A program made the translations under genes and the position numbers. The notes under the pieces are model-generated. The model saw nothing but the letters and a program-made list of their open reading frames with translations. It searched no databases and was not told the origin of the DNA. This document shows, in pieces, positions 884 to 23,424 of a stretch of 23,424 nt of DNA. Source of the DNA: a virus; the IMG/VR virus record IMGVR_UViG_3300007539_000232, positions 1 through 23,424 of that record; one strand, written 5' to 3'. Position 1 is the stretch's first letter. Each line of letters begins with the position of its first letter.

Positions 884-1732
884 TTATTGTATCCCAAATG
901 GTATCTTTTCTCCATAATGCACAGGGAAATTGTGCGCTTCCATATATTTTTCAAAAGGAATTTTTAATTTCTCTTCAGTCGGCGTCATACCTAATGAAAA
1001 ATATTCTTTCCATACAGTGTAATCTGATAATGGAAATCGCTTCGTCATTCCTCTTGATTCATATAAAGTATTCATATCATTATAAAACTCACCCATTAAT
1101 TCATCATCGCCTGTCGAGTAAAGTTCATCAGCGCCTAAACCACTTATCACTGTAGAAGATGGAATAAAGTTTACAATAAATTCTTGTCCTCCGCCTTCAC
1201 GTAATCCATCAATAATTTCTCCGTTTACTAATTTGATTCTTTCGCTTAAAATTTTATAATTTTCAATTGATTTAATTGAAAGAACATTGAATTTTAATTT
1301 TTGTTTATGAGCAGAAGCTGTAATAACACCTGAATCATGACCGGAACTCATTGTAATGGTAGGATTGTCAGTTATTCTTAATGCAACCGCATCATCAATC
1401 GCCTGAAAGAAATCGTCGAAAGATTTTTTCTTCTTAAATCCTTGAGGATACTGATAAAATTTGCCTGAAGTTTTCCAGTTTTGCTGAAAACTGGTTATCA
1501 TATTATCTTCTAAAACAATTGTAGAATTTCTAGGTAGCTGATTGCTGGATTGTGTGCCAGCGAAATCTGTTATATAAACAGTTTTATTATCATATTCTAT
1601 TTTAATTGAATAATCGCCTTTGAGGTAACGAAAAGAAGATAATTTTTCTGCCTCCCAAATACCACAAACATCAACCGGACAAAACCCTTTAACAGTAATT
1701 TTAGCATCATTTACATAATAAATTTGATTCAT
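884..1732 (-). CDS. Asparagine-synthetase-like ATP pyrophosphatase
   Basis: The 282-residue protein carries both signatures of the AsnB / beta-lactam synthetase C-terminal domain. A PP-loop SSGHDSG lies at residues 129-135 (family SGGxDS) and binds ATP pyrophosphate. An SGLGADEL motif lies at 197-204 (family SGxGADE), the acidic active-site loop. The family activates a carboxylate by adenylation and amidates or cyclises it. AsnB exceeds 500 residues and starts with a Cys-2 glutaminase domain. Here that domain is missing or reduced to about 100 residues, where a LKGDYSIKIEYDNKTVYIT stretch resembles only its end. There is no Met-Cys start, so glutamine hydrolysis looks lost. The gene follows gp15 with a TAATG overlap; a GAGGGTGA sequence lies 12 bases before the ATG. 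It is notably AT-rich. Substrate unknown. Confidence 0.72.
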   Translation of the reverse strand: MNQIYYVNDAKITVKGFCPVDVCGIWEAEKLSSFRYLKGDYSIKIEYDNKTVYITDFAGTQSSNQLPRNSTIVLEDNMITSFQQNWKTSGKFYQYPQGFKKKKSFDDFFQAIDDAVALRITDNPTITMSSGHDSGVITASAHKQKLKFNVLSIKSIENYKILSERIKLVNGEIIDGLREGGGQEFIVNFIPSSTVISGLGADELYSTGDDELMGEFYNDMNTLYESRGMTKRFPLSDYTVWKEYFSLGMTPTEEKLKIPFEKYMEAHNFPVHYGEKIPFGIQ

Positions 1733-2514
1733 TATTCTATAGTGTCACCCTCTCCGGGATAAAGGAATGTTACTGTTGTATTAAAGTCGCTATCCCCAAT
1801 AATATTTAAATCGACAGGATTAGGCTCAACGGTTACTCTCTCAAGAAGCTCGCTGGTATTTTGATCCTTAAAGTCAACGATAGCCTTTCTAATAACCTTA
1901 GAGTCAGCAATTGGTCCAAAGAATTGAGTCTTTAGTTCAAAATCAAGAGTATAGATAATCGTTCTACGGCTTTCAAGAGTGTTTTCATAATCATCGTTAA
2001 ACGAAATACCTATGAGCGAGATAGGAATATCTTCTTTTATGTCATTATAATCGCTAAAAGGTTTCATTGTAATTGTGTATGATGGATTAAAATACGGTAT
2101 GATTTGTTCTAAAATCTGAACCGCATCCTCATTTGTCTTTGTTAAAATATTTAATTGAAAATTCAAAATATAGGGTACAGCTGTAAAAAACTTAGTTCTT
2201 ACTCCAGTGTCAGTTGAGACGAGACGAGTAAAATTATTTACTTTTGGTAGCTGTCGACTTGGATCAAAATACATCGCTGCCATTTCAAAAGACATTCTGG
2301 GCAATTTGATTGCAAGCTTGGCGTCTGCCATATCCTCAGTTTCACGGATACGATCTAAAAATTTTTGTTTCGGTGCATAACTCAAAGGCACTTTTAGTTG
2401 ATTGATAATTTGGCCTGATGAATTATTACGAATCACATAAAGATTATTGAAAAGGGTGCCGAAAACTGCAACGCACTTTCTAATTTTTTCATGATAGAAA
2501 TGTTGAGTTAACAT
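1732..2514 (-). CDS. gp15: Tail sheath stabiliser / tail terminator gp15
   Basis: The 260-residue protein matches T4 gp15 in length (272 residues) and position directly after the neck genes. T4 gp15 forms a hexameric ring that caps the tail tube and sheath and provides the surface for head joining. The N-terminal HFYHEKIRKCVAVFGTLFNN segment (residues 5-24), the later VPLSYAPKQKFLDR segment (42-55) and a central SFEMAAMYFD (75-84) are typical of this family in marine T4-like phages. The start codon overlaps the preceding TAA by one base (TAATG), and a strong GGAGAGGTGA ribosome binding site lies upstream inside the preceding gene. The stop also overlaps the following ATG by one base. No oddities were seen. 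Confidence 0.87.
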   Translation of the reverse strand: MLTQHFYHEKIRKCVAVFGTLFNNLYVIRNNSSGQIINQLKVPLSYAPKQKFLDRIRETEDMADAKLAIKLPRMSFEMAAMYFDPSRQLPKVNNFTRLVSTDTGVRTKFFTAVPYILNFQLNILTKTNEDAVQILEQIIPYFNPSYTITMKPFSDYNDIKEDIPISLIGISFNDDYENTLESRRTIIYTLDFELKTQFFGPIADSKVIRKAIVDFKDQNTSELLERVTVEPNPVDLNIIGDSDFNTTVTFLYPGEGDTIE

Positions 2515-3293
2515 TACGTCACCTCTCCGAATGGATTACCTTCACTGAAATCAATAATATCATCAGCAAATGTTTCAAATCCAGTGTTCTGTTCATTTTT
2601 CGTCAAGTTTGTAGATTCGCCTACACTTAACACTGTTCTGGTATATCTTTTATTAGTTGCACCAAAAGTAATATCTCGACCTACAACAAAATTATGATAC
2701 TTGCCATCTGAAGCGCCGACATTCACTAACTGTAAAATACCATCCTGATCAGTGTAAGAAGCTATTTCGCCTTTAATTTGAGTCCCATCAGAAAGAACCT
2801 GCGTAGCGCTGTCTCCTGGACTATACTCAGTATAGATACCCTCAAATTCAATAGCAGGATTTCTCTTATATCCGCCACCGCCAAATGTAATTGTTACGCC
2901 ATCAACTTGACCGCTTGCGTCAATTGTTGCAATGGCACGGGCAGTGAAATCAGCTGGCGTACCTGTAGCGGAATCAAAAGTTATTGACTCGTTACCAGAA
3001 CTGTTGATACTTGGGGTAACAACACTTCTTACTCCGCCCTCGCTATCAATGTTTACTAAAGCACGAACTGATGTTGCAGAATCGCCGGAATCGTAAAAAA
3101 TAGTTGCATATAATGGGTCCTGATAATAGTTCCCAGGATCATCAATAACGATTCTACTAATTGAACCGCCACTCATCACTAATGATGCTCTGGCGCCTCC
3201 TGCTTCCGCCTGAGGAGGACCAATAACTATTCTCGGCGCTGAATCATAACCGAAACCAGTATCCTGAACTGTAATTGTATTTACACGACCCAT
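2514..3293 (-). CDS. Gly-rich beta-repeat protein downstream of gp14, possibly a detached neck protein domain
   Basis: This 259-residue protein begins MGRVNTITVQDTGFGYDSAP. It contains at least three copies of a Gly-x-Gly-Tyr/Tyr-Tyr-x(3)-Pro beta module: near residues 13-20, at GNYYQDP around 53-59, and at GGGGYKRNP in the middle. The first copy closely resembles a module in the gp8-like protein of this window. There is no recognised enzymatic motif. The start codon shares one base with the stop of gp14, and no clear Shine-Dalgarno sequence precedes it. It may therefore depend on coupling to gp14 or represent a C-terminal gp14 extension in the +1/-1 frame. The position between gp14 and gp15 makes a neck or head-tail connector role likely. 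The function is inferred from context only. Confidence 0.7.
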   Translation of the reverse strand: MGRVNTITVQDTGFGYDSAPRIVIGPPQAEAGGARASLVMSGGSISRIVIDDPGNYYQDPLYATIFYDSGDSATSVRALVNIDSEGGVRSVVTPSINSSGNESITFDSATGTPADFTARAIATIDASGQVDGVTITFGGGGYKRNPAIEFEGIYTEYSPGDSATQVLSDGTQIKGEIASYTDQDGILQLVNVGASDGKYHNFVVGRDITFGATNKRYTRTVLSVGESTNLTKNEQNTGFETFADDIIDFSEGNPFGEVT

Positions 3294-3880
3294 TAGGTTA
3301 TACTCAACTTTGCTTTTGCTCGGCGAAGTGGCGTAACGCCAACATTATAGTTATAAGCATACTTTTCTTCGACTTCATCAATAACTTCCGTACCAGTATC
3401 AAAGTCTTCACCAGCGTATTCGAACAACTCAATTTCCATACGGAAAGTCGGAAGATCTTGTATTTGATAGAATGGACGGTCATCAATGACTCGCATAATT
3501 TCAAAAATCTGATCAGAGAGCGGTAGGTAAATAAGATCGCCTTCTCTTGGTCTATTGTAATCAACGTTAAGACCTACAGCAAATTCCCAACGCCTTCTTG
3601 AAACATGAAGCGTAGCTCTGTCCCTAATTTCAACACCGAATTTAGTGAACAGTTCTTGATCCCCATCAAAGCCTTCAATGTTTTCCAAATACATTTCAAT
3701 AGTATATGCATCGTCAAACCTTGATACAGCGTCTTCCCCAAATATTTTATCTTCATTGACAAGTGATCTTGGAAGATACTCAACATCTTGTCCATAAATT
3801 TTTAAGGACTCAATGATAATATCTTCATAAAGATTTTGTTCTGACCTTACTGACTGGGATATATGAGGATTGCGAGCCAT
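3293..3880 (-). CDS. gp14: Neck protein gp14
   Basis: The 195-residue protein begins with NPHISQSVRSEQNLYEDIIIES, then IYGQDVEYLPR at about residues 29-39, a hallmark of the gp14 neck protein of T4-like phages. In T4, gp14 with gp13 completes the head-tail interface after DNA packaging. The acidic central part and a VGVTPLRRAKAKL end fit the family. T4 gp14 has 256 residues, so this copy is short. The next gene starts on its stop codon and may supply a domain that is fused elsewhere. An AGGATAAGG ribosome binding site precedes the ATG, which is three bases after the gp13 stop. Order gp13-gp14-(extra gene)-gp15 matches T4 apart from the insertion. Confidence 0.87.
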   Translation of the reverse strand: MARNPHISQSVRSEQNLYEDIIIESLKIYGQDVEYLPRSLVNEDKIFGEDAVSRFDDAYTIEMYLENIEGFDGDQELFTKFGVEIRDRATLHVSRRRWEFAVGLNVDYNRPREGDLIYLPLSDQIFEIMRVIDDRPFYQIQDLPTFRMEIELFEYAGEDFDTGTEVIDEVEEKYAYNYNVGVTPLRRAKAKLSIT

Positions 3881-3883
3881 ACC

Positions 3884-4639
3884 TTATCCTAAGAAGAAAT
3901 CTACAGGTAACTCATGAGTAAGCCTTACCTGTTCCCTTAATCGTTCAATCTCTTGTGTGGCGTCATCATACAGTTGTCTACCGTTCAGAGTTATACCGCC
4001 CGGAAGCTGCATTCCTTCAAACTTTATCAGATTCGCCCCCCACTGTTGCTTAATTAGCTGTGTAAGGTATTCCTTTAAGAAAATATCATTATACACATCA
4101 TTAAATGTATCTGGGTCAATAGCCTGATAAACTTCAAAAACAAGATAATCATCAACTTCAATCTCTTGGTTATTGAAATCTCCATGAATATGAATTCTGT
4201 TTTGATTTCGGCTGAACGTAATCTGAGGATGACCATTCAGCTTCATATCTAACAAAGAAACATACTGACGCATTTGCTCATAATATGCTAAGTCGCCAAT
4301 AAATGTATTCAAATCATAAAGTTCATTCAAAGATAATTGATATTTTAAATCAAAAAAGTTTGAGGACGTAGTTCCTGAAGCATTGATCGGAAACATACGC
4401 TGCACAAAAAATACATTATCATCAACTGTAATATATTTATTACTTACGTCATCAGCAGTCACTTGGTGCTTAACATAAGTTCTGAATAACGCATCAGAGT
4501 TATATTCCCGATAAAACTGAATAGCCTCATCCACTCTATCCTCCAGCTGAGACTCTTCGACGTTAATCTCTAACACTGGAGAACCGAGCTTACGCAAACA
4601 GTAATCAATTAATCCTTGTCTACTCGATGGATTAGCCAT
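3884..4639 (-). CDS. gp13: Neck protein gp13 (head completion)
   Basis: The 251-residue protein starts MANPSSRQGLIDYCLRKLGS, followed by PVLEINVEESQLEDRVDEAI at about residues 21-40 and IQFYREY. This N-terminus is characteristic of gp13 in T4-like marine phages. T4 gp13 (309 residues) acts with gp14 to seal the filled head and form the neck to which the tail attaches. The middle carries hydrophobic-aromatic beta segments, and the C-terminal third is helical with IERLREQVR near the end. An AAGGAAA ribosome binding site lies upstream of the ATG. The gene follows the fibre genes, matching T4 where gp13 follows wac. The family assignment is firm; domain edges are by eye. Confidence 0.88.
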   Translation of the reverse strand: MANPSSRQGLIDYCLRKLGSPVLEINVEESQLEDRVDEAIQFYREYNSDALFRTYVKHQVTADDVSNKYITVDDNVFFVQRMFPINASGTTSSNFFDLKYQLSLNELYDLNTFIGDLAYYEQMRQYVSLLDMKLNGHPQITFSRNQNRIHIHGDFNNQEIEVDDYLVFEVYQAIDPDTFNDVYNDIFLKEYLTQLIKQQWGANLIKFEGMQLPGGITLNGRQLYDDATQEIERLREQVRLTHELPVDFFLG

Positions 4640-7165: not shown

Positions 7166-10075
7166 TTAAGTCCTTATAATTGTCTTATGCGGTTTAATAT
7201 TAATCGTTCCATCTCGAGTCGAGCGTCTGGTAAAGTTAAGATTAATATTCGCACCAGAAACTGTTACATCAAAGTCACCAAATACACTGTCTCCAGTAAA
7301 GACCGTACCGAACTCAGTAAACGCTACAGTCCCCGCACTATCAAAGGTCGCAAGAATTCTTGTGATTTGAGTTTCACCTTTGGTAGTTGATCCGTTTGTA
7401 TCTTTAGCATGAATGGTGTAATCAATTGATTGAGCCATATTTTCATGCGGAGTGCTGTTGACAACGACTAAGCCAGCGCCAGCATTTTGTGCCGTTGGAT
7501 TGCTTCTTATATTACCGCCTACTGCAATTTTACCAGTAAATGAAGCAGAGTCAGCAGCTAGTTTACTAAACGACATACCAGTAGAGGTAGTCTCAGCAAC
7601 TTTTACTTTATTGTAGTAAAGATCAGTGCTAGATGTAGAATTGATGGTTAATGTTGATTCAAAAGCTTTAGTTGCAAAGAATACTGTACCTGCCGCAACG
7701 GTGAGTGTGTCAACCTCACCTGCTTGAATGCGGTTTGACGATCCAGTAGAATAAACTCTAAAGTCATATGGATCAGTACCACCTGCACCAAATCTCGCTT
7801 CTACGTTATCAAGGAATGTAATTGGTCCACTAACATCATCACCAGCAACTCTTACAAAAGTTGTATCATTGGTGCGGTTACTATCAATCTGTCCTTGAAC
7901 CGCAGCGGAATCATGAGTATCTGTCGCAGTAGTTAAAACATCATTACCAGCTACGCTCAAGCTCGTTGTGATCTGAACGTCAGCTGGGAGGCCAATAGTT
8001 GCCACACCGCCTGAAGCTGTAACCTCAACTTCATTAGCTGTACCCAAAATATCATTATTGATTGACGAGTCAATTTGACCATCTATCGCAGCAGAATCAT
8101 GTAAATCTTCATCGGCAGTAAGGACTCTAACGCCATTCAGCCCTAAATTGCCTGAGCCTAAATGCGTCAGCTGAGCTGCACTATCTTGTCCTGCACTATC
8201 AAGAATTCGTAAAGTTCCATGTACACGAGTAAAGCCACGATTAATTCGTAAACCGAACTTACCTTCGCCTGTGCTATCGGAATAAAAATCTATGAAAAAC
8301 TTTTTAAATCTAGCTAAAACTAAATCTGAGTCATATGTTCGAATACTTACATTATCAGAAGCGAGCTTTAGGATTCCGCCGCCACCAAAATCGATGGTTT
8401 GAATAGTTGAAGCTTTACCTGAACCATTGGAATCATTTAAAGTTAAAACGTTATCAATGGTTGTGGTGCCAGCAATATCAACGTTGCCGGTAATATCTGT
8501 GTTACCTTGAATAGTAACGCCGCTATCAGTAGTCCTTAGCCTTTCCGTAGCAGTGCCATGATATAATCTGACCGTGCCCTCGGTTGCACCACCTTTAATT
8601 TGTAACTGATCAGTTACTGATGCGATTGACCCTTCGCCATCAAACTGAATTGATTTTGCATCTCCAAGGTCTAGTTCTCCACCAAAGATAATATCATTAG
8701 CGAAATTCGAGTCAATTTGACCTTGAATTAATGCGCTATCATGTAAATCTTCAGTGTCAGTTAACAGCCTCTCGCCATTATAATATGGGGCTTTATTTAA
8801 TGTCCATCTATCGTTTGCTGACGTATATGTAATTGTTGCATTTGCGCCATTGACAGTAATTCCAGCGCCATTAGCTTGAGAACTATCTTGTGCTGAATCA
8901 GCGAGAATAATGTTCTTATCTGAAATTGAAACTGTTGTTGAATTAATCGTTGTCGTCGTACCGTCAACTTGGAGATCGCCCAAGATAACAACCTTACCTG
9001 TGCTATCACCAACACCTGCTGGATCAATAGTAAAGGTTGCAGGGCCAGCCAAATAACCGCCGACTGTTAAGTTACTATCGACAGTCAAGTCAGCAGAAGT
9101 AGTTACATCGCCATATAAAGAAACGCCGCTTGCTGTCGTCCGTAACCTCTCTGTAGAGCCTCCATAATAGATTTTAACTAATCCATTAGAAACGCCACCA
9201 GTAACTCTTAATTCATTTGAGAAGGAATAAATTTGACCTTCATTATCGAATTGAATTGTTTTACCGTCAGCAAGGTCAAGATCGCCACCAAAAATAATAT
9301 CATTTGCCAATGTGGCATCAATTTGCCCTTGAACCGCAACACTGTCATGAGTATCAAAAGTATCAATTAAAGATTGAGTTACAGTCGAATCAATTTGTTG
9401 TTGCACAGCGACACTATCGTGAGTATCTAATGTGTCGATGTAAGTTTGAGGGACTCTTAATTGAACGTATGCAGAATCAACTAAATCGCTGGTTGCTTGG
9501 CTATCTACACCATCTGGGCGAACAGTAGGAACCGAGATAGTACCTGTGGCCGAATCATATACAACGTTAAGGCCAGCTTTCAATACGCTCGTTATTTGTT
9601 GCGAATCAGTGAACGTAATATCAAATACGCCGCTTACGTCACTATAAATTAATGTACCGAATCCGCCAGACTTTACAACACTAATTGCCTCAAGCGTCAG
9701 GTCACTGTCGCCAGCAGAAGATACTTGGTCAATTGCGACGATAAATTTTTGAACGTCGCTATCGTATTTCAAAATTCTTTGATGTTGTAAATTAGTTAAA
9801 TCTACGTCAAATAAATTACCGATACTTGTTACAGAAATTTGTGAATCAATTTGACTAACAACATTTGCTGTAGCGACAGATATAGTGTTTGTTGCACTAT
9901 CAATATCCATCGTAACGTCATCAAAATTAAAGAACGAACGATTGCCCTGTGTATCAGATAAAATAACCGAAAAGTCGCTATCTGGCTTACCTAAAAATGG
10001 CTCAGCATTAGCTAAATCAATATGAGTGTCTGTAAGCTGACGATGAAGGACTTTACCGCTTAAAAGTTTAGCCAT
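7166..10075 (-). CDS. Long modular tail fibre protein with internal duplications
   Basis: The 969-residue protein begins MAKLLSGKVLHRQLTDTHID, a start I associate with marine phage fibres. It carries five copies of His-Asp-Ser-[AV]-x-[VI]-x-x-Gln-Ile-Asp, two of which head an 82-residue duplicated block. A VDGTTTTINSTTVSISDKNI segment (plus ILADSAQ) is a well-known marine phage fibre motif. The last about 120 residues (IDYTIHAKDTNGSTTKG, then ILATFDSAG, FTEFGTVFTG and VSGANINLNF) form a compact beta domain of the sort found at fibre tips, a plausible receptor-contact or trimerisation domain. Asp-Ser occurs about 31 times. The start overlaps the end of the 111-residue gene by eight bases and uses a TGGAG ribosome binding site inside it. 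Virion location is inferred from composition and neighbours. Confidence 0.8.
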   Translation of the reverse strand: MAKLLSGKVLHRQLTDTHIDLANAEPFLGKPDSDFSVILSDTQGNRSFFNFDDVTMDIDSATNTISVATANVVSQIDSQISVTSIGNLFDVDLTNLQHQRILKYDSDVQKFIVAIDQVSSAGDSDLTLEAISVVKSGGFGTLIYSDVSGVFDITFTDSQQITSVLKAGLNVVYDSATGTISVPTVRPDGVDSQATSDLVDSAYVQLRVPQTYIDTLDTHDSVAVQQQIDSTVTQSLIDTFDTHDSVAVQGQIDATLANDIIFGGDLDLADGKTIQFDNEGQIYSFSNELRVTGGVSNGLVKIYYGGSTERLRTTASGVSLYGDVTTSADLTVDSNLTVGGYLAGPATFTIDPAGVGDSTGKVVILGDLQVDGTTTTINSTTVSISDKNIILADSAQDSSQANGAGITVNGANATITYTSANDRWTLNKAPYYNGERLLTDTEDLHDSALIQGQIDSNFANDIIFGGELDLGDAKSIQFDGEGSIASVTDQLQIKGGATEGTVRLYHGTATERLRTTDSGVTIQGNTDITGNVDIAGTTTIDNVLTLNDSNGSGKASTIQTIDFGGGGILKLASDNVSIRTYDSDLVLARFKKFFIDFYSDSTGEGKFGLRINRGFTRVHGTLRILDSAGQDSAAQLTHLGSGNLGLNGVRVLTADEDLHDSAAIDGQIDSSINNDILGTANEVEVTASGGVATIGLPADVQITTSLSVAGNDVLTTATDTHDSAAVQGQIDSNRTNDTTFVRVAGDDVSGPITFLDNVEARFGAGGTDPYDFRVYSTGSSNRIQAGEVDTLTVAAGTVFFATKAFESTLTINSTSSTDLYYNKVKVAETTSTGMSFSKLAADSASFTGKIAVGGNIRSNPTAQNAGAGLVVVNSTPHENMAQSIDYTIHAKDTNGSTTKGETQITRILATFDSAGTVAFTEFGTVFTGDSVFGDFDVTVSGANINLNFTRRSTRDGTINIKPHKTIIRT
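8498..8743 (-). repeat. Second copy of 82-codon fibre module
   Basis: This 246-base in-frame block starts at HDSALIQGQID and ends at GVTIQGNT. It aligns without gaps to the block at 9104-9349, with about 47 of 82 residues identical by eye, including ANDIIFGG, IQFD and TERLRTT. Confidence 0.85.
9104..9349 (-). repeat. First copy of 82-codon fibre module
   Basis: This 246-base in-frame block starts at HDSVAVQGQID and ends at GVSLYGDV. It is the upstream partner of the block at 8498-8743 and has exactly the same length. A further truncated HDSVAVQQQID copy lies just upstream in the same protein. Confidence 0.85.
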
Positions 10076-13439: not shown

Positions 13440-13787
13440 TTATGCTGTATCCGATAAAGTCACGCCTTGATTGATTTCTAAAATTCCTTCTAGAATTCGT
13501 TCTGTGACATCATCCGCATTTTTGAGTTCAACATCATAAACATATCGGCCAGCAGAGATATTTTTTGTGTCTGCTCCATTTAAAGACAATTCAATTATGC
13601 CATCTGTTTTAGGAAATGGTATAAAACTTGTGAAGGCATATGCAGTAGTCGAATTGTACGACTTTTTATATTTAGCTGATACTGTGATATTAGTTAGATC
13701 TTTTGCTAATCTATCGCTATCGACCAATTCTAATTGAAAGATAGTATCTGTACCCTGATCAGCAGTAAGAACTGCATATTCTGCCAT
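13440..13787 (-). CDS. Beta-sandwich virion protein, 115 aa
   Basis: The 115-residue protein reads like a single Ig-type beta sandwich. It has TADQGTDTIFQLELVDSD at about residues 8-25, KYKKSYNSTTAYAFT in the middle, then ISAGRYVYDVELKNADDVTE and RILEGILEINQGVT near the end. The order of strands (opening Gln-Gly-x-Asp, central Lys-Ser-Tyr, closing Gly-x-Tyr-x-Tyr-Asp-Val) matches a small conserved protein of marine T4-like phages and recalls the N-terminal domain of baseplate BppU-type proteins. The BppU comparison is only by pattern. A perfect late promoter box lies 39 bases upstream of the ATG, preceded by an AT-rich gap. An AAGAG sequence serves as a modest ribosome binding site. Confidence 0.68.
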   Translation of the reverse strand: MAEYAVLTADQGTDTIFQLELVDSDRLAKDLTNITVSAKYKKSYNSTTAYAFTSFIPFPKTDGIIELSLNGADTKNISAGRYVYDVELKNADDVTERILEGILEINQGVTLSDTA

Positions 13788-13826: not shown

Positions 13827-13834
13827 TATTTATA
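13827..13834 (-). promoter_or_regulatory. T4-type late promoter box
   Basis: The minus strand reads TATAAATA in the 52-base gap after the small helical gene, 39 bases before the ATG of the 115-residue protein. It is a perfect match to the T4 late -10 element and would separate the AT-rich enzyme block from the next structural unit. Confidence 0.75.
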
Positions 13835-13839
13835 TTGAG

Positions 13840-14064
13840 TTATTTTCCATCATCAGTCATTCTTGTAATTAAATCTTTTAACAAAGATTCAATGGTATCC
13901 ATTCGCTGCTCAATGCGTTCAATTCTATTTTGTTCTTTCTTCTTTGCTTCTTTTTGAGCTCTTGCCTTCATCAAAGCGTTTTTATCGGTATTTATAATCG
14001 CATTTGATGATGCATCCCTAAAAAGGCCATTCGAATTTTCAACTGGAATAAGTTTCTTGCTCAT
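13840..14064 (-). CDS. Small coiled-coil protein conserved in T4-like marine phages
   Basis: The 74-residue protein begins MSKKLIPVENSNGLFRDASS, then NAIINTDKNALMKARAQKEA. It finishes with a charged helical segment, IERIEQRMDTIESLLKDLI at about residues 49-67, with a clear heptad pattern. I associate the N-terminal L-x-x-V-x-x-x-x-x-L-x-R-D-x-x-x-x-A-I-[IL]-N pattern with a small conserved protein of T4-like cyanophages of unknown function. The start overlaps the stop of the glycosyltransferase gene as ATGA, with no strong ribosome binding site, so it is probably translated by coupling. A multimeric adaptor or chaperone is conceivable given the coiled coil and location, but nothing in the sequence proves it. 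Confidence 0.7.
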   Translation of the reverse strand: MSKKLIPVENSNGLFRDASSNAIINTDKNALMKARAQKEAKKKEQNRIERIEQRMDTIESLLKDLITRMTDDGK

Positions 14065-14786
14065 GCTACAGATATTGTTTTCGAATAGTGGTAAATAATA
14101 ATTTCGTCTTCTTCATTTATATGCTTTGCCTTTTGATACAAGGGTAACCAATTCCATAATATGTCATTTGGAAAAAAGTCATATTTTAGTTTGTATTTAT
14201 TCCATTCTTTATTCGTTAGCCACCAAAGCGAGAATTGATCCCATGCCCTAAATCTTATTGGGTAAAGTTCTAAATCAGGCCACCATTTTTTGTCTCTAAT
14301 TTTTTTATCTAATTTGTACCAATCTGACATAAATTTTTTAGCTGAAGACTTGTACAAGCAAATCCCGCCGTGTAATTTAAATTCGCCACCAGGGAATACT
14401 CTGTTATTACCATGCTTATGGTTGTATGCGTACTCTTGTTCTTTGGTGATCCTTGTCCAAAGCATATCATTGTTGCCAATTAAATCGAAAACTTCAGAAA
14501 ATTGATCATTCACAACAGCCATATCGCAATCCATATAAAGCGTTAAATCATAGGGACTGTTGGCCATTGCCCATAATTTTGTTCTATATTCATTTGGACA
14601 TTCTGTGATAACATTTTCAAACAAATTATTATGTGATTCATCATGATAATCTGCGTTAGTAAACAGAGTTATTTTAGCGTCAGGTAAATATTCTTGAATT
14701 GTATTGGCGCAAAATATTGCTTTTAAATAATATTCTCTGTTAAGGGTCGCAACAAGAACAACGCCTTTACTCAAAATCCAGCTCAT
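14061..14786 (-). CDS. GT8-like glycosyltransferase (GT-A fold)
   Basis: The 241-residue protein has the layout of a GT-A nucleotide-sugar transferase related to family 8. Residues 8-16 (GVVLVATLN) form the first beta strand and nucleotide-binding region. LYMDCDMAV at 83-91 holds the Asp86-x-Asp88 metal-binding motif. HGGICLY at 139-145 matches the acceptor-side strand (family pattern N-x-G). WDQ at 182-184 is the usual Asp-Gln, and IIIYHYS with His233 is the C-terminal metal ligand position. It would transfer a sugar from a nucleotide donor; donor and acceptor are unknown. It lacks a signal peptide or membrane anchor. It overlaps the oxygenase-like gene by 20 bases and the small coiled-coil gene by four, and lies among virion genes. 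A fibre or tail protein acceptor is plausible inference. Confidence 0.72.
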   Translation of the reverse strand: MSWILSKGVVLVATLNREYYLKAIFCANTIQEYLPDAKITLFTNADYHDESHNNLFENVITECPNEYRTKLWAMANSPYDLTLYMDCDMAVVNDQFSEVFDLIGNNDMLWTRITKEQEYAYNHKHGNNRVFPGGEFKLHGGICLYKSSAKKFMSDWYKLDKKIRDKKWWPDLELYPIRFRAWDQFSLWWLTNKEWNKYKLKYDFFPNDILWNWLPLYQKAKHINEEDEIIIYHYSKTISVA

Positions 14787-15405
14787 TTTTTAGATTTTCC
14801 CACATATATGCGCTATTGTCATCAGGCAAAAAACGCCAAGCTAGACTAATACGTAAACAATTGGTGTAAGCCGCATGATAAAAAGGAGGCTTGTCTTCTG
14901 TGTATGATGGAAAATATGACATCTTAATTTGCCAGCCAGGAACATCCTGAACTTTTACTGTGTTGTTATTTTCATCACGGTATAGAAAATATCCATCGCC
15001 TGTTTCTGACCAAGTCGCTAACAGATTATATCCAGGAGCATCAGCATTATTATGCCAAGAAATTCCTCCTTCGGGTGGATAAAGCGCAGCTAAAGGGCAA
15101 TGATAAGTGCCTAAAAAGGTTTGCATTTCTCTATGCAAAGGGGCAAGCTCGGTTGAGATTTCTAACGCTTTGTCATCATTTATTAGCCGTAACATATAAT
15201 CAACTTCTGGCTTACCTTTATGTAAGGTATGTTGTTTTATAATATAATCACAGTATTTTTCTGATACATGAGTTTTATCAAAATTTTGATGATTAATAAA
15301 TTCCAGAGATTCTTTGTTTGTTTTATACCACTCTAATATAATCGAAGAAAAATTATTTAAATATTCATTAAATTCTTTATTCTTCGATGTCACCTGTGTC
15401 AGCAT
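14767..15405 (-). CDS. Double-stranded beta-helix protein, 2-oxoglutarate/Fe(II) oxygenase-like
   Basis: The 212-residue protein has a helical N-terminal half and a C-terminal jelly-roll pattern. GGISWHNNADAPGYNLLATW at 113-132 is followed by GYFLYRDENN, then GWQIKMSYFPS, FYHAAYT and LRISLAWRF. This order closely resembles a family of marine phage proteins annotated as 2OG-Fe(II) oxygenases (Trp-His-x-Asn...His...Arg-x-Ser). Candidate metal ligands are His118, Asp122 and His177; Arg185 could bind 2-oxoglutarate. The His-x3-Asp spacing is not the canonical His-x-Asp, so activity is uncertain. It overlaps the coiled-coil gene upstream by 29 bases and the glycosyltransferase by 20. The start is favoured by a GGAAGAAAAG sequence. 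The substrate is unknown; hydroxylation of a virion protein or a sugar are both possible. Confidence 0.6.
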   Translation of the reverse strand: MLTQVTSKNKEFNEYLNNFSSIILEWYKTNKESLEFINHQNFDKTHVSEKYCDYIIKQHTLHKGKPEVDYMLRLINDDKALEISTELAPLHREMQTFLGTYHCPLAALYPPEGGISWHNNADAPGYNLLATWSETGDGYFLYRDENNNTVKVQDVPGWQIKMSYFPSYTEDKPPFYHAAYTNCLRISLAWRFLPDDNSAYMWENLKNELDFE

Positions 15406-15838
15406 TATTCTTTTCTTCCATTAACAAAAAGACTGCATTAATAATAGCTTCGATACTACTTTTCGATCTTCTAATTTTCGATTTAGCTTCTCTGTTATTT
15501 GATTTTGAAATTTCATCGATGTTAAAAATTTCAATCTTTGTCTCAAAAAGTTTTCTGATCTTACTGTATTCAAGCTCTTCTTTTTTTCTTTTTTCGTCAA
15601 GCTCGAGCCGTTTCTGACGCTCAATCTTTAGCTCTTCGGTAGCCTCATCAATTTTTTCTTCAGGCCATTGCTCTAAGATTTTTGTAAAAGTAGGATTTAA
15701 TTCATCATCAATATATTTCTGAACTAATCCTTGCGTTGTCGATTTTTTATTTGGCCCCAGTTCGTCAGTATATTTTACAGCGACCGCTGTTTTATCTGGA
15801 TTAGTCCAAGTCACAATATCATAAATTCTTTTAGACAT
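15377..15838 (-). CDS. Charged coiled-coil protein of unknown function
   Basis: The 153-residue protein has an N-terminal beta part (IYDIVTWTNPDKTAVAVKYT, residues 5-24) and a strongly charged helical stretch at about 63-93 (IDEATEELKIERQKRLELDE followed by KRKKEELEYSK). Then comes IFNIDEISKSNNREAKSKIR and a hydrophobic helix AIINAVFLLM near residues 131-140. I do not recognise a named family, though the C-terminal Asn-Arg-Glu-x-Lys-x-Lys-Ile-Arg segment looks like that of a small protein in cyanophage structural clusters. The gene is AT-rich. It has an AAAGGTGAG ribosome binding site and overlaps the next gene by 29 bases. A scaffold, chaperone or fibre-assembly role fits the context but has no direct evidence. 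Confidence 0.62.
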   Translation of the reverse strand: MSKRIYDIVTWTNPDKTAVAVKYTDELGPNKKSTTQGLVQKYIDDELNPTFTKILEQWPEEKIDEATEELKIERQKRLELDEKRKKEELEYSKIRKLFETKIEIFNIDEISKSNNREAKSKIRRSKSSIEAIINAVFLLMEEKNNADTGDIEE

Positions 15839-17116: not shown

Positions 17117-20100
17117 TTATGTACCGAGTGCAATAGCCCTTAAATCTCTGAAGGTTGGCACTTTAGAACTATTTGAACTCCGCATCACAATCTTTAATTG
17201 GAAGGTAGTGAAAGGAACAAGGTCTCCCCCAAGTCCGCCGATCGTATATTCATAATCACGGTAAACATTTCTATCCTCATCAGTTTGAACGATCGTCTCT
17301 TGGGATGCCAACACATAAGAAACATCGTTAATATTTATATCTTCCCCCGCAGAGATAGTTCTGTAGTATAAATCAAAATTAGCATTATCAGGACGATTTG
17401 CGCCGATAAGAACCTTTAATCCAACAGCTGGTTGTTCTAAACTAATTGGCCGTGTAATATGCTTAGAAAGATGTGAACCGCTTTGTGGATCAGTTTCATC
17501 AACCCATGTCAATGGATTATTCAACGGCGAAACAACGGAAGCGTCAGAATCTTGATTATCAATCAAGTTGTTTTCTGCGATAATACCAGTGCGGCTCATT
17601 AATATTACAGGTGAAACAAAATCACTTGTTGTAGTCAAATTAGCAACAATTTTAAGTGATCTTCTAGGATCGCCAGCAGCTAATAATGTTGCCTCTGTAT
17701 TTTCAATTGCTCTATGTGCAATAACTTTTGGTGATTCAAAGTCAATAGGCTCAAACGGATTGATAGCTCTTGAACCACTAATAGCGTATGTATTTGTAGG
17801 AGAAGAGAAACTTCTACCCTCAGCGAATGAGCCATTGTAAGTAATTCTTGCTTCAGGAACTGGGATAAACGATTCAATCGTCGGGAATAAGGTATCCATC
17901 TGAATATTATCAGTGAAGGTAATTTCACTTCCATCGGCGTTACCAACCAGCACACTAGAAGTTGCGGCGCTATCAGCTTGGAATGTGAAGCCTGTTCCAT
18001 CAACTTTTACAACAGTTCTTTCGCCTTGTAAGGAAGTACCTGTGATTCCTCCAAAGTCGCCTGTAGAGTCTACACCAGTTAGCGTTACCTTATCCCCTAC
18101 ACCAAGGCCATGACCTCTGGAGAAGACTGTAACGGAGCTATCTCCCGAAGCTGTTAAGAATGGACTTGGGTCAAGAATCTGATCAGGGTAATCAATATTT
18201 TCAAGGACTGCTGTGCCAGAAGAAACAAATTTAGCTCTATGCACTTTGAACATCATATCTCTTGTTTGATCTGGTGTCCAAGTAATTGCATTTTGCGAAA
18301 GGAAAAGAGAACCTAAGCTTGGCTGCTGTCTTACTCTCTGAGTTGTAGTGCCTATTACAAGATCACCAGCTTTAGCCACATATACGTTATAATCTAACGT
18401 ATCAGCCATTAAGACAAATGCTACGTTCGTTCCGCCAGGAATATAAACTGGGCTTGGGAATGCGAACCGAGTAGGAGCTGCGAGAATCGAAGCTAAATCA
18501 TCAGAATCTGCTGGTAAGTTTACGCTAGTCGCAGGAACAGTAACTGAAGAGCCAGTGAAAATTTCATTTTGACTTGGGACGCCATTGCGTAATGGACGAA
18601 CTTCTAATTTTACTGGAATATTAGCATCGACTCCTGTTGGTTTAGATGAAAAATAAACATCAATTCCTGTAAGGAAAGCGCCAGTATCTTGGGCAATAAC
18701 GAAAGATTGGGCTAACGGATCTCTTCCTAAAGGAGGAATCGTCGTAATAAATACGGTCCCTTCTACTCTAATTGTTCTTACAGTTCCTTCGCCGAAGTAA
18801 GATGCAAACGCTGAAGATTGCGAAGCGGCATCATTATTAACGCTAATATCTAAGAGTTTTACTTCACGCTCGCCACGCTCAAATCTCAAAGAATCGTTAT
18901 TTGGCACCAAGAAAGATCCAATAATTTCCCCTGATGCATCAGAAATAAGAGGTGTGGTTCCTACTGGATCAGGGTGCGTTGTAGCACGGCTGTTAATATA
19001 TTGATCTTGAAGCCTTCTCGAAAATGCCGTGAAGAATGTTTCTTCCTTCGCATATGAACTAATGTGCTCGCCATCAAAGAACAAGAAGTGTTGAGTTAAA
19101 GGACGTAAACCTTCAGCTTTAAATCTTACCAATCTGGAACGTATAAAAGGTAACAACCGAATTGAAACGGTAGTACGTGTTGTCTGTGTAGTTTCCACCA
19201 AGGTAAGTCCTGCGCTTCCTGCCCTTGGTCTGTCTGGAGTATTTTGTCGACCGCCTCTAAACCGCTCAAAAAATTCAAAACGATTTAAACGAACACGAGT
19301 CACTCCCCCGCCTACTCTACGTGTTACTGTGAAAATATCGGTTTCAGGCTCTAAACGTAAAGATCCTACGAATGTAATAACTTCAAATGGGTTAATATTT
19401 TCAGTCTCAGTCGCCAAAGTCTGAGTGATAAAAGAATCTTCTGTGTAATCAAGATGAACAAAATTTTCGCTTAATGCGGTGCCAGTGTTTGCAGCATCAG
19501 CGGAATCATATCCTAGTGGAACTGATTTAATAGCAACGTCTGAGTTAAGTCTACCTGTTCCTAAATCAAAGGTAGCAGTATATGCAGAATCATTTACATT
19601 AGAATATGCCATTGTGACAAAGTTATCTGCAAACAATCCATTTTTAAAACGATTCACTCCATTGGAATCTAAAACTTCAATACTTTCAGTTTGCGTTTCT
19701 AGCAGATTTAATGTCGTGACTTCCTCAAGATTTTCAATTCTTTCTACAATGTCAGAAATATCACGCATGGTGTAATTGCGGTTTTCGACAAAATACTCTT
19801 CAACATCTAATTCATTATCAGTAAACGGATTTAAACGATATTCTTTAATTTTAAGAGCAGTCTGTGGTGGCCTTGGAGTAATTCTGTTATCGAGCGCTGG
19901 CACACCTTGAATGTAACTAATAGTCTTATTTTGGTCGATGACGAGAATATCGTTTCGACCTTGATAGTAAATAACGTCAGCAGTGATAGTATCAGTGTTC
20001 TGCGGTAACTCATTAAGGTTTGCTACAGACACGGTAGAAATCGCATCACCATTTGATTCAATATATGGTCTAAAGTCTAAAACATTACGGAGCTCAACAG

Positions 20101-22177
20101 TTTCGCCATTACGTTGTCTATGTTTAGGAATTTCAGCGTAACGAGTTCCTCCACCAGCGCCAACTGTGGTCGTTTGTCTTGGTTCGCCCCCAGATAAATG
20201 GCTATAGGAGTTTACTGAGAAATAATCTCCGGTGCCATGAACATAGTGTCGATAGACTGCTTTGAGTTTTGTCGCAGGTGCAGTAGCGCCGCCTCTGAGA
20301 AGTAAACGGCCATTCATATAGAAGTTATCACGCTGACCATTATCAAAGATAAATCTATCTAAAACTGATCGTTCATTTCCAGCACCATCTGAGTCTACCA
20401 AAGACTGAATTGAAACAATGTCAGGATTAGGAAGTTTAACCATTTGCTGACCGTCTTGGGTCTGTACATCCAAAGATGTAGTGGTCGTTTCCGTTAGAGT
20501 TTTGGTACGAACTGTTGGTGCGCTCAGATTTACATAAGCTAGAACTTCAATATCATCGGCTGCTCTTCCTGTATTTGTTGTTACTACAGAACCAGAAACA
20601 GTAGCATCGGGTAAAATTTCATCAGTTGAACTATCAATTGCCACAATCCATTGAGTTTGATTGGTGAAGCTCTCGTTTACCCCTAAATCGCCCGATAAAT
20701 CTAATGTGCCGCCAGTGGTAGTTCCTACAAATCTGCGCTGAACTGTAAATGAAACATCTTCAACAGATTGTGGACGCTCTTTACCAAGGCTAAAGAAGAG
20801 GTTATTATTTACTGCTTCTTTGATAACAGCGACACCACCTTCAAGGACTAAATCAAAATATTGGTTTGCCCCTAAACCAATACTTCTCATATCGCTGAAC
20901 TTATACCCTGCATCCATTTGTACGTCCCAAAGGTACAGGCGATAGTTTGCACCGTCTTCTGTCAAAGAACGCACTCTGGCTGTACCTCTGGTGGTCCCAC
21001 TAAATCCAGTGCTTGGGCGTAAACTTACTCTCTGGAAAACATGCATGTTAGGAATAAAACCTGCACCAGAAGGAGCAGTCACTAAAACATAGTTACCATA
21101 ATTCGCAGCGATGGCTTCGTTTTGTACAGTTTCAGTGCTTCTTGGCTTCTCGACAATAATTTTGTTTGGCTTTTCATTCGCCACTCGATAGCCCTTAACG
21201 TATGCAATACCTCTTTGAATATCTAATCGCAGGACTGAATCCGAATCACCTTTTGACTGACTTGACGTGAAGCCCTCTACAACATAATCGCCAGATTCTT
21301 CGCTAATTCTAGTAGCAAGTTCTCTTTCAACAATGTTATATGTTGTTTCATCAACCTCTCGCTGAAGAACACCATCAACAGCTACATTATATGTGATAAA
21401 AGCATCTTCTGCGTTTAACTTATCCTGTGTTGTAAGATTTAAACGGATGCGATATCTATCTGCACCAGGAGCTGTAAGGTTTGGGTTTACTTGCTGATTA
21501 TCATAGAGTGCGTCAGTATCATCGACTGTTACAATATCTTCTGTAACTTTAAAACCAATAGTTTTGTTAGGTGTAGAAGAATAACGGTCAAGGATAATTT
21601 CTTCTTTATCAGTGGTAACGAAATGCCCAAGAACGAAAAATGTTCCTCCACCTTCAACAGCAGCTCGGGAACCTAACCCGACAGCTGGATTTGCAGTAGT
21701 ATTAGTTGCCTGAACATTGATTGAAACTGAGCCATTTGAAAGTGACTCGCTCGGTGAAAATCTAACAGTAGAAGCGCCAGCAGTACCGCTTTGTGTACTT
21801 AAATATTTTACATAAAAAGTAGCTGGATTGTCTGTATCTTCAAATTGTTCAATACGTAAGATCTTTGCGATGACGCCACTTGTACCGCCAGTGATTTGAT
21901 CACCAACAGCAAAACCAGTTGTATCAGTTGTTGCCAGCTTAACGAAAGAAAAATTTGTATCTAATGTAAGTCCACCAGGAAGGACGACACTACCCTCTTT
22001 GAAGATATGCCTACCAAGGCGCTCAATTTCTTTTTGCGTAATAGTCTGAAGCTGCGTCAGCTCTCGGGCTTGTAAGGCTCTACCCGAGTTAAAAAGAATG
22101 CGGTGATAGTGATCGCTATCTCTAAAATCATCTTTGTAAGTTGTACTAAAAGTAGTTTTTGTAAATGGATTAGGCAT
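17117..22177 (-). CDS. Large DUF4815-type tail/baseplate structural protein, 1686 aa
   Basis: The 1686-residue protein opens with a DUF4815-type domain: YKDDFRDSDHYHRILFNSGR then ALQARELTQLQTITQKEIER, followed by GSVVLPGG (residues about 14-75). Near 330 lies GIAYVKGYRV. RNYTMRDISDIVERIENLEE at about 797-820 is a helical stalk segment, followed by NGVNRFKNGLFADNF. At about 1000-1045 is FIRSRLVRFKAEGLRPLTQH and FFDGEHIS. From about 1150, DPLAQSFVIAQDTGAFLTGI begins a beta domain ending in FPSPVYIPGGTNVAFVL. This order is seen in large structural proteins of marine T4-like phages next to gp8, the position of gp9-gp11 in T4. It probably attaches to the baseplate. It starts 14 bases after the gp8 stop with a TAAGGT ribosome binding site. 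Confidence 0.78.
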   Translation of the reverse strand: MPNPFTKTTFSTTYKDDFRDSDHYHRILFNSGRALQARELTQLQTITQKEIERLGRHIFKEGSVVLPGGLTLDTNFSFVKLATTDTTGFAVGDQITGGTSGVIAKILRIEQFEDTDNPATFYVKYLSTQSGTAGASTVRFSPSESLSNGSVSINVQATNTTANPAVGLGSRAAVEGGGTFFVLGHFVTTDKEEIILDRYSSTPNKTIGFKVTEDIVTVDDTDALYDNQQVNPNLTAPGADRYRIRLNLTTQDKLNAEDAFITYNVAVDGVLQREVDETTYNIVERELATRISEESGDYVVEGFTSSQSKGDSDSVLRLDIQRGIAYVKGYRVANEKPNKIIVEKPRSTETVQNEAIAANYGNYVLVTAPSGAGFIPNMHVFQRVSLRPSTGFSGTTRGTARVRSLTEDGANYRLYLWDVQMDAGYKFSDMRSIGLGANQYFDLVLEGGVAVIKEAVNNNLFFSLGKERPQSVEDVSFTVQRRFVGTTTGGTLDLSGDLGVNESFTNQTQWIVAIDSSTDEILPDATVSGSVVTTNTGRAADDIEVLAYVNLSAPTVRTKTLTETTTTSLDVQTQDGQQMVKLPNPDIVSIQSLVDSDGAGNERSVLDRFIFDNGQRDNFYMNGRLLLRGGATAPATKLKAVYRHYVHGTGDYFSVNSYSHLSGGEPRQTTTVGAGGGTRYAEIPKHRQRNGETVELRNVLDFRPYIESNGDAISTVSVANLNELPQNTDTITADVIYYQGRNDILVIDQNKTISYIQGVPALDNRITPRPPQTALKIKEYRLNPFTDNELDVEEYFVENRNYTMRDISDIVERIENLEEVTTLNLLETQTESIEVLDSNGVNRFKNGLFADNFVTMAYSNVNDSAYTATFDLGTGRLNSDVAIKSVPLGYDSADAANTGTALSENFVHLDYTEDSFITQTLATETENINPFEVITFVGSLRLEPETDIFTVTRRVGGGVTRVRLNRFEFFERFRGGRQNTPDRPRAGSAGLTLVETTQTTRTTVSIRLLPFIRSRLVRFKAEGLRPLTQHFLFFDGEHISSYAKEETFFTAFSRRLQDQYINSRATTHPDPVGTTPLISDASGEIIGSFLVPNNDSLRFERGEREVKLLDISVNNDAASQSSAFASYFGEGTVRTIRVEGTVFITTIPPLGRDPLAQSFVIAQDTGAFLTGIDVYFSSKPTGVDANIPVKLEVRPLRNGVPSQNEIFTGSSVTVPATSVNLPADSDDLASILAAPTRFAFPSPVYIPGGTNVAFVLMADTLDYNVYVAKAGDLVIGTTTQRVRQQPSLGSLFLSQNAITWTPDQTRDMMFKVHRAKFVSSGTAVLENIDYPDQILDPSPFLTASGDSSVTVFSRGHGLGVGDKVTLTGVDSTGDFGGITGTSLQGERTVVKVDGTGFTFQADSAATSSVLVGNADGSEITFTDNIQMDTLFPTIESFIPVPEARITYNGSFAEGRSFSSPTNTYAISGSRAINPFEPIDFESPKVIAHRAIENTEATLLAAGDPRRSLKIVANLTTTSDFVSPVILMSRTGIIAENNLIDNQDSDASVVSPLNNPLTWVDETDPQSGSHLSKHITRPISLEQPAVGLKVLIGANRPDNANFDLYYRTISAGEDININDVSYVLASQETIVQTDEDRNVYRDYEYTIGGLGGDLVPFTTFQLKIVMRSSNSSKVPTFRDLRAIALGT

Positions 22178-22191
22178 TCTTTTATTTTACC

Positions 22192-23424
22192 TTACAGTTG
22201 TACGATAATTTTAATATCTTCAGTTTGCGCTGTATTCCTTTCTACAGCACTTCTATTCTCTATATATAGAACTTCTCCAGAGAATGCTTTGATCGTGCCT
22301 GCGGAATCTGTGACGATCTCTGCGGTAATCCCTGTTGCTGAGTCAAGGAAAACGTCTTCGCCATCTTGGAAAGAAATAAATCCGTCACTTTCAGTAAAGT
22401 GATAATGCAACTTATTTGAAAGTAATTCATCCCCACGAGCCTTGGCCCCAGAAGTTGCACCAACGATTAGCGCATCTCGAACAGCTTCACTATCAAAAGC
22501 TGCATCAATGTTTGTGAGCGTAAGAATATTCATCGCTCTTGCGTCAGTACCCTTAAAATCAGAATCAATAAGTTGATTTTTCTTAGGATTTTTAATTAGG
22601 CCGATTTGTCTAAAATCTTGATCAACCATAAAGGAACCGTTTTGCGTCCCCTCAGGTTTAGCATTGATCATAACACCAACTGCACCAAGATCATCTCTTG
22701 GGTCTGCGCCAATACCATTATTTGAAATAATTGGTCTAATTACAGCAGTAGTCGTTGGTGCACCGAAAGAACCAGAAAATGAAATTGAGGCATAGCTATA
22801 ATCTTTACCGAACGGAATACCGCCAGCCGAGTCATCAATTTCAACTTTAGCAATACCACCCGCAGTAGTAAGCGTAGCGATTGCTTTAGCGCCCGTCCCA
22901 TTACCATTAACAGTTAATGTTGGTGCTGAGGAATATCCAGCTCCAGCGTTTACAACTCGATAACCAATTACCGAACCAGCGATAGCTGCATCTTGTACGG
23001 TTTTTTGAGTTGTTTCAACAACAGTTAAATCATTGGCGGAATCAACTTTTGACACAGGTAAAAAGTTCGCTGACAAAAAGTTATTTGCTCTTACAGCGCT
23101 CAATGTAAACAGATATTTCCAGATATAGCCATCAGAAGTCGCTACTGCAGTTGAACCAGTACCAATCGAATCTGGATTGACGGTAGATTGCGTAACGTTA
23201 CCTGTGGTGGTTTTGCCTTGCTGAAGGCAAATATACACTCTTTGGTTATCTGATAAAATATAAAATGGATATGTAGCTGAATTTTGAACAGCGTTTAAGT
23301 TATCGCTGTACGCACTATAAATGGAACCAGATGTCCAATTGTATCTTGATGCAACAAACGATGCGTCAGTCGCTCGAATAATGGATTGTAAAGCAGTACG
23401 GAAGTTACGCTTTTCCCTTTCGGT
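22192..23424 (-). CDS. gp8: Baseplate wedge protein gp8-like, C-terminal part
   Basis: The frame is open to the right edge (first complete codon at 23424), so at least 410 residues are present and the N-terminus is missing. The internal GTG at 23238 is not the start, because the frame continues upstream through NWTSGSIYSAYSDNLN and YPFYILSDNQRVYICLQQGK. That segment and DGYIWKYLFTLSAVRANNFL are characteristic of gp8 in T4-like phages; T4 gp8 (334 residues) is a dimer in the baseplate wedge. A Gly-rich NAGAGYSSAPTLTVNGNGTG module at about 22930 is absent from short T4 gp8 and may be an insertion. The stop lies 14 bases before the DUF4815 gene, consistent with one baseplate transcript. The gp8 call is from motifs and neighbours. 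Confidence 0.75.
   Translation of the reverse strand, partial: TEREKRNFRTALQSIIRATDASFVASRYNWTSGSIYSAYSDNLNAVQNSATYPFYILSDNQRVYICLQQGKTTTGNVTQSTVNPDSIGTGSTAVATSDGYIWKYLFTLSAVRANNFLSANFLPVSKVDSANDLTVVETTQKTVQDAAIAGSVIGYRVVNAGAGYSSAPTLTVNGNGTGAKAIATLTTAGGIAKVEIDDSAGGIPFGKDYSYASISFSGSFGAPTTTAVIRPIISNNGIGADPRDDLGAVGVMINAKPEGTQNGSFMVDQDFRQIGLIKNPKKNQLIDSDFKGTDARAMNILTLTNIDAAFDSEAVRDALIVGATSGAKARGDELLSNKLHYHFTESDGFISFQDGEDVFLDSATGITAEIVTDSAGTIKAFSGEVLYIENRSAVERNTAQTEDIKIIVQL

Follow-up and report, generated by a model that had tools for sequence, protein, structure and literature searches.

What do genes for a glycosyltransferase-like and an oxygenase-like protein do within the tail gene cluster of a T4-like phage? 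The question is raised by a 23,424-base virus record (hereafter the window), which is a T4-like structural gene cluster on the minus strand, and for which a first-pass annotation had suggested that the two enzymes act as a pair on a virion protein. A literature search covering work outside most subscription journals returned no description of the module, and a hydroxylase/sugar-transferase cassette for phage fibres has, as far as we found, not been described before. We propose that the two genes belong to a self-contained, late-expressed cassette which modifies the phage's own tail fibre, a reading that we hold to be rather probable.

Composition of the gene unit

Four consecutive genes had been singled out by the first-pass annotation on account of overlaps of 29, 20 and 4 bases, and all three overlaps are present between the helper, oxygenase-like, GT8-like and 74-aa genes (Table 1). 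Their setting among baseplate, tail and fibre genes was likewise borne out: VrlC/DUF4815 and gp8 flank them at one end, and fibre genes together with gp13, gp14 and gp15 at the other. The four-gene grouping itself stood for the first three genes; the 74-aa gene was rejected as a member of the cassette because it is a virion structural protein of PHROG 473 that occupies the same place after VrlC in ordinary cyanophages (in cyanophages, and in Pseudomonas phage pf16 too, a gene of its type follows the VrlC-type gene immediately or almost immediately), and the fibre gene upstream has to be added. The true unit is therefore fibre, helper, oxygenase-like and GT8-like gene.

Elsewhere in the window, gp14 (head closure) is apparently split into two overlapping ORFs; the first corresponds to the N-terminal half of PHROG 460, and the second to its C-terminal half with a fibre-like stretch in addition. 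The relative L003 has a single gp14 gene of 290 aa.

Table 1. Features of the window, with positions counted from its first base.
Feature	Position	Strand	Remark
gp8	22192-23424	-	outer neighbour of VrlC/DUF4815 gene
VrlC/DUF4815 baseplate protein	17117-22177	-	upstream border of host-recognition cluster
Fibre gene, 419 aa	15845-17104	-	predicted substrate
Helper, 153 aa	15377-15838	-	obligate partner
2OG-oxygenase-like protein, 212 aa	14767-15405	-	predicted double-stranded beta-helix; H118-x-N120...H177...R185
GT8-like glycosyltransferase, 241 aa	14061-14786	-	DxD 86-88, D183-Q184, H233
Small virion structural protein, 74 aa	13840-14064	-	PHROG 473; neighbour, outside cassette
T4-type late-promoter word TATAAATA	13827-13834	-	just after cassette
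Further copies of the same word	13989-13996, 17332-17339		
Protein of 'L-shaped tail fibre assembly' PHROG group	13440-13787	-	flanking gene
gp13	3884-4639	-	
gp14	3293-3880 plus 2514-3293	-	
gp15	1732-2514	-	

The glycosyltransferase

The Asp-x-Asp core first noted as GT8-like is strictly conserved; Asp86 and Asp88 are invariant in 52 of 52 distinct homologues, as are D183 and Q184, and H233 is present in 51 of 51. The protein has the DxD metal site, the DQ motif and the C-terminal metal-binding histidine expected of GT8. Structure prediction, which the first-pass annotation had suggested for both enzymes, gave an AlphaFold2 model (pLDDT 90.5, from a 28-row alignment) with a GT-A fold whose top match among those listed is glycogenin (Z 17.4, rmsd 3.1, 191 residues aligned); GlyE and the Skp1 galactosyltransferase, which are protein-directed, come next, and the lipopolysaccharide enzyme LgtC is also listed. 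The predicted GT-A fold (Z 15-17 across some 190 residues), the DxD and DQ motifs and the C-terminal His are thus shared with GT8 enzymes whose acceptors are protein or protein-linked, but identity to them is 13-17%. Pfam PF01501 yielded no match above its curated cut-off for the window protein, and even a divergent homologue (L155) reached 18.8 bits, below the cut-off of 24.3, for which reason we file the enzyme as GT8-like; searches of Pfam, PHROG, NCBIfam and PDB sequences placed it in no named family.

A pattern-based scan of 84,980 prokaryote species genomes in GTDB, from which distant relatives may escape, gave two matches to the glycosyltransferase, and both come from MAG bins but are phage contigs that carry the cassette; they were accordingly rejected as bacterial homologues. 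The same scan placed no homologue in bacterial envelope gene clusters, where an auxiliary metabolic gene for lipopolysaccharide modification was looked for. As far as found, then, the family appears to be phage-only. The two contigs (L313 and L314) carry T4-like phage structural clusters and are filed under Sphingobacteriales and Gammaproteobacteria MAGs, probably through misbinning.

The oxygenase-like protein and the helper

A jelly-roll oxygenase-like core of His118, His177 and Arg185 had been proposed, and these three residues are indeed invariant (63/63, 62/62 and 61/61); the second metal-ligand position, however, is Asn120 in 63 of 63 sequences, so that HxN stands where HxD/E defines the 2OG-Fe(II) oxygenases, and the HxD/E motif is absent from all 63. 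Since the acid ligand is replaced throughout, activity is not assured, and we do not class the protein among canonical 2OG-Fe(II) oxygenases. The AlphaFold2 model (pLDDT 93.7, 36 rows) is a double-stranded beta-helix, with PHD2 (Z 11.4) and bacterial P4H (Z 10.9) among the matches listed. With PHD2 and bacterial or algal P4H the protein shares this predicted fold (Z about 10-11), the distal His (H177) and the 2OG-binding-type Arg (R185) of prolyl-hydroxylase type, whereas it differs in HxN for HxD, in an identity of about 10% and in the rarity of proline in its predicted substrate.

Searches of Pfam, NCBIfam and PDB sequences gave no match to the oxygenase, and PHROGs gave a weak one to PHROG 274 alone, labelled endonuclease V. 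Cyanophage proteins under this 'DNA endonuclease V' label (PHROG 274; BFVD A0A127KLI7) resemble the oxygenase weakly in sequence and fold, and the label may be wrong. Paralogues of the oxygenase also exist without a glycosyltransferase, between the major capsid (gp23) or tube genes and UvsY/UvsW, or near a helicase gene (L004-L009; phage C48C1, 18267-18920 and 40130-40804), which argues that the oxygenase can work without the glycosyltransferase. A single in-frame TAA interrupts the second oxygenase copy of G006, G009, G010 and G022.

The helper is a charged protein with a conserved C-terminal RR-K-E block and fell into no named family of Pfam, NCBIfam or PHROGs; the PDB sequence search covered the glycosyltransferase and the oxygenase.

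Linkage of the cassette across viral contigs

A glycosyltransferase profile run against 2.9 million viral contigs gave no fewer than 80 loci; a second scan started from the helper (at least 80 loci) and a third from a DNA pattern encoding NYxGNYxGNY. The viral records are mostly fragments and many loci are near-duplicates, so counts are given on distinct proteins. HMM searches around the glycosyltransferase loci showed helper, oxygenase and a Tyr/Phe-rich repeat fibre adjoining throughout, in many uncultured, mostly aquatic T4-like phages. Among the matches listed, helper and oxygenase are both present in the locus for 119 of 126 distinct glycosyltransferases; the seven exceptions are ends of contigs or loci, or have the oxygenase elsewhere on the same contig (L267 being judged from a truncated glycosyltransferase). 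A neighbouring ORF with at least four [YF]xG[TNDSEQ] motifs accompanies 124 of the 126; of the other two, L029 has a truncated fibre and L158 a short one from the same family. L158 was rejected as a counterexample, since its short fibre yields few regex matches and is still of this family; L066 was rejected as well, because in the near-identical L069 the fibre lies one gene further upstream.

Scanned from the helper, both enzymes are present in 74 of the 80 loci listed; of the six incomplete loci, five are cut off by the end of the contig, and in the sixth (L122) a fibre is inserted after the glycosyltransferase and the contig ends inside that fibre. From the fibre side, the cassette accompanies tetrad-repeat fibres when the contig extends far enough downstream, among the matches listed; of seven NYxGNYxGNY contigs lacking it, six end in or just after the fibre and one (L258) holds an unrelated 166-aa ORF. 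The order is helper, glycosyltransferase, oxygenase in 115 cases and helper, oxygenase, glycosyltransferase in three plus the window, and the glycosyltransferase has moved away in one (L314); because order varies while the partners stay together, the linkage survives rearrangement. A tblastn search of 50,697 phage records, even with divergent glycosyltransferase queries, found the set in phage C48C1 only.

The survey of homologous clusters that the first-pass annotation had called for thus shows that the two enzymes co-occur and track the fibre genes, and that their homologues adjoin fibres and not DNA- or lipopolysaccharide-modification genes, consistent neighbourhood with the latter being what it had named as evidence against its proposal. 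Its view that such a cassette would be unusual for T4-like phages did not hold, given at least 126 distinct versions and the GT8 genes of the host-recognition cluster already described in a published report (PMC7029224).

The tetrad-repeat fibre

The fibre of the window consists of a conserved N-terminal part, a short region of aromatic tetrad repeats (AYTGAYTGTYAGDYVGTYAG...) and a conserved C-terminus (...TLYVKVS). It contains 9 [YF]xG[TNDSEQ] motifs against 1.6 in shuffled sequences (0 of 500 shuffles), and among the window proteins clear enrichment is confined to it, with a weak signal in 7166-10075 (p 0.014). In long fibres the aromatic residues recur every four residues, with a 3.3 to 3.9-fold excess at spacing 4, and the repeat unit is [N/D/T/Q][Y/F]x[G/R]. 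The residue before the aromatic is Asn or Asp in about 60%, the residue after it is Thr or Ser in about 40%, and proline makes up 1-6% of the fibres. With Phe and Tyr in a ratio of 48:52 at the aromatic position, Tyr is weakened as the sole acceptor and an obligatory Tyr-O-sugar is disfavoured; the low proline content likewise weakens Pro as an acceptor and disfavours prolyl hydroxylation despite the fold.

Fibre lengths range from about 360 to 3,347 aa; the longest (L002 9406-19449, in C48C1) has about 200 aromatic tetrad motifs and is annotated as a hypothetical protein only. The fibres of the window, L003 and L017 have few repeats although the cassette is present, so there may be targets besides the repeats. 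A C-terminus of TLYVR.A or KLW[VIL]RTA type stands immediately before the helper gene in the window and other loci; among 128 distinct proteins encoded upstream of the helper, 96 have the ending [TSKR]L[YWF][VIL][RK] followed by one to three residues, most others being close variants, and this end is a possible docking tag.

The Ser/Asp/Tyr-rich fibres named initially as targets are upheld in so far as a Y/F tetrad-repeat fibre is tracked by the cassette; Ser/Asp richness is a lineage trait of its own. Asp-Ser dipeptides, often as DSD or DSA, exceed expectation more than twofold in the fibre and baseplate proteins of the window (119), in L003 (95 vs 37) and in L017 (113 vs 44), and show no excess in C48C1 (38 vs 48 expected).

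Co-divergence and late promoters

Pairwise distances among glycosyltransferase, oxygenase and helper, computed over 47-75 lineages thinned at 90% identity, correlate with r of 0.78-0.89, against a permuted maximum of 0.29; correlations of the cassette proteins are 0.53-0.64 with VrlC and 0.72-0.82 with the flanking fibre-assembly protein. The late-promoter word of Table 1 occurs within about 60 bases after the cassette some 63 times in 107 loci, whereas 216 kb of cassette interior contain 13 copies; the density of T4-type late-promoter words immediately behind the cassette is about 160 times that within it. Of 88 complete fibre genes, 30 have the same word in the 200 bases preceding them, and in C48C1 it stands 56 bases ahead of the fibre gene and again 20 bases past the oxygenase. 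A search for the cyanophage promoter variant CTAAATA gave nothing. Because of these promoter words and the overlaps of the genes, fibre and cassette look like one late unit.

Discussion

Modification of the fibre is well supported by association, whereas hydroxylation and glycosylation as its putative chemistry draw on predicted folds and conserved residues. The first-pass proposal of a virion fibre as the substrate of both enzymes is retained as to the fibre, which neighbours their homologues, and loses its Ser/Asp basis.

Its main competitor is that the glycosyltransferase alters host lipopolysaccharide or capsule and so blocks other phages, the fibre being linked to it via a shared concern with the receptor. 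The GT8 genes of the pelagimyophage host-recognition cluster have been read as modifiers of the lipopolysaccharide O-chain, and fibre modification conflicts with this account of genes in the same region; they resemble ours in being GT8 genes located between VrlC and gp14 but differ in their published role, and linkage to a fibre, helper or oxygenase was not found in the available portion of that report (PMC7029224). A host-surface role would also suit the match to LgtC and the genes for UDP-glucose dehydrogenase and an epimerase that C48C1 also carries; the closest listed folds, however, are protein-directed, and the glycosyltransferase is tied to a single kind of repeat fibre, whose C-terminus is conserved, rather than to receptor-binding tips that vary. 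Since lipopolysaccharide modification explains poorly the obligate repeat fibre, helper and oxygenase, the absence from bacterial genomes in the pattern-based GTDB scan and the placement in a late unit, this rival is weakened, and we regard it as unlikely. DNA as the substrate, hydroxylated and glucosylated, has a precedent in that glucosyltransferases acting on phage DNA are classic, as in T4; with no DNA-modification genes in the window, a consistent fibre context and a predicted fold nearest to protein-directed GT8 enzymes, its probability is close to nil.

The enzymes could also act on virion proteins separately, for example the glycosyltransferase on the fibre and the oxygenase on another structural protein or a cofactor. 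The paralogues without a glycosyltransferase would fit such a division, as would L062 and L122, where a fibre gene separates the two or follows the glycosyltransferase, but the oxygenase copy of the cassette is always found with glycosyltransferase and helper and co-diverges with them; separate action is in our view rather improbable. It is less plausible still that both are non-catalytic assembly factors, folds recruited as chaperones for a difficult repetitive fibre. While HxN in place of HxD/E, the obligate helper and the strict fibre linkage would be expected of chaperones, the other catalytic-type residues (DxD, DQ and His of the glycosyltransferase; two His and Arg of the oxygenase) are invariant across 52-63 sequences.

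The closest conceptual relative of fibre modification is Mimivirus collagen, which is reported to be hydroxylated and glucosylated by L230 and related proteins (PMC9546862). What the two systems share is a hydroxylase and a glycosyltransferase, both encoded by the virus, for a fibrous protein of repetitive sequence; Mimivirus, however, is a giant virus with a collagen Gly-X-Y substrate and an unrelated domain set, whereas here a phage would employ separate genes and a helper on an aromatic tetrad fibre. The candidate substrate is here the four-residue aromatic repeat and not collagen Gly-X-Y. Mycobacteriophage glycosyltransferases are also phage-coded and proposed to glycosylate the virion, but their target is the capsid, and the part of the source available mentions no oxygenase or fibre cassette (PMC11256854).

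From these observations we infer a substrate, a chemistry, an order of reactions and a benefit. One late transcription unit would yield the fibre and its three partners; the helper probably binds the fibre soon after its synthesis, perhaps via the conserved C-terminus, and presents it to both enzymes. The oxygenase-like protein, of peptidyl prolyl hydroxylase build with HxN, probably hydroxylates residues in or near the tetrad repeats, where Asn or Asp, frequent just ahead of the aromatic, is a likelier target than the scarce Pro. The enzyme with the glycogenin-like fold probably adds sugar to hydroxyls of the repeat, whether of Thr/Ser, Tyr or a newly hydroxylated residue, and the modified shaft might be stiffer, more protected or better-binding than the bare polypeptide. 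In its most specific form the proposal is a widespread phage-coded system, guided by a dedicated helper, that hydroxylates and then glycosylates the new fibre at many positions by means of a prolyl-hydroxylase-fold oxygenase having a 2-His-1-Asn metal site and of a glycogenin-like transferase; in this form it is offered tentatively and is itself doubtful.

If true, many T4-like phages would have chemically decorated tail fibres that are not predictable from sequence alone, and GT8 genes of the host-recognition cluster taken for lipopolysaccharide modifiers would be reinterpreted. Three unnamed protein families would gain a testable function, among them an oxygenase family with Asn for the usual acid ligand, and the cassette may offer orthogonal enzymes with which to decorate protein fibres of repetitive sequence.
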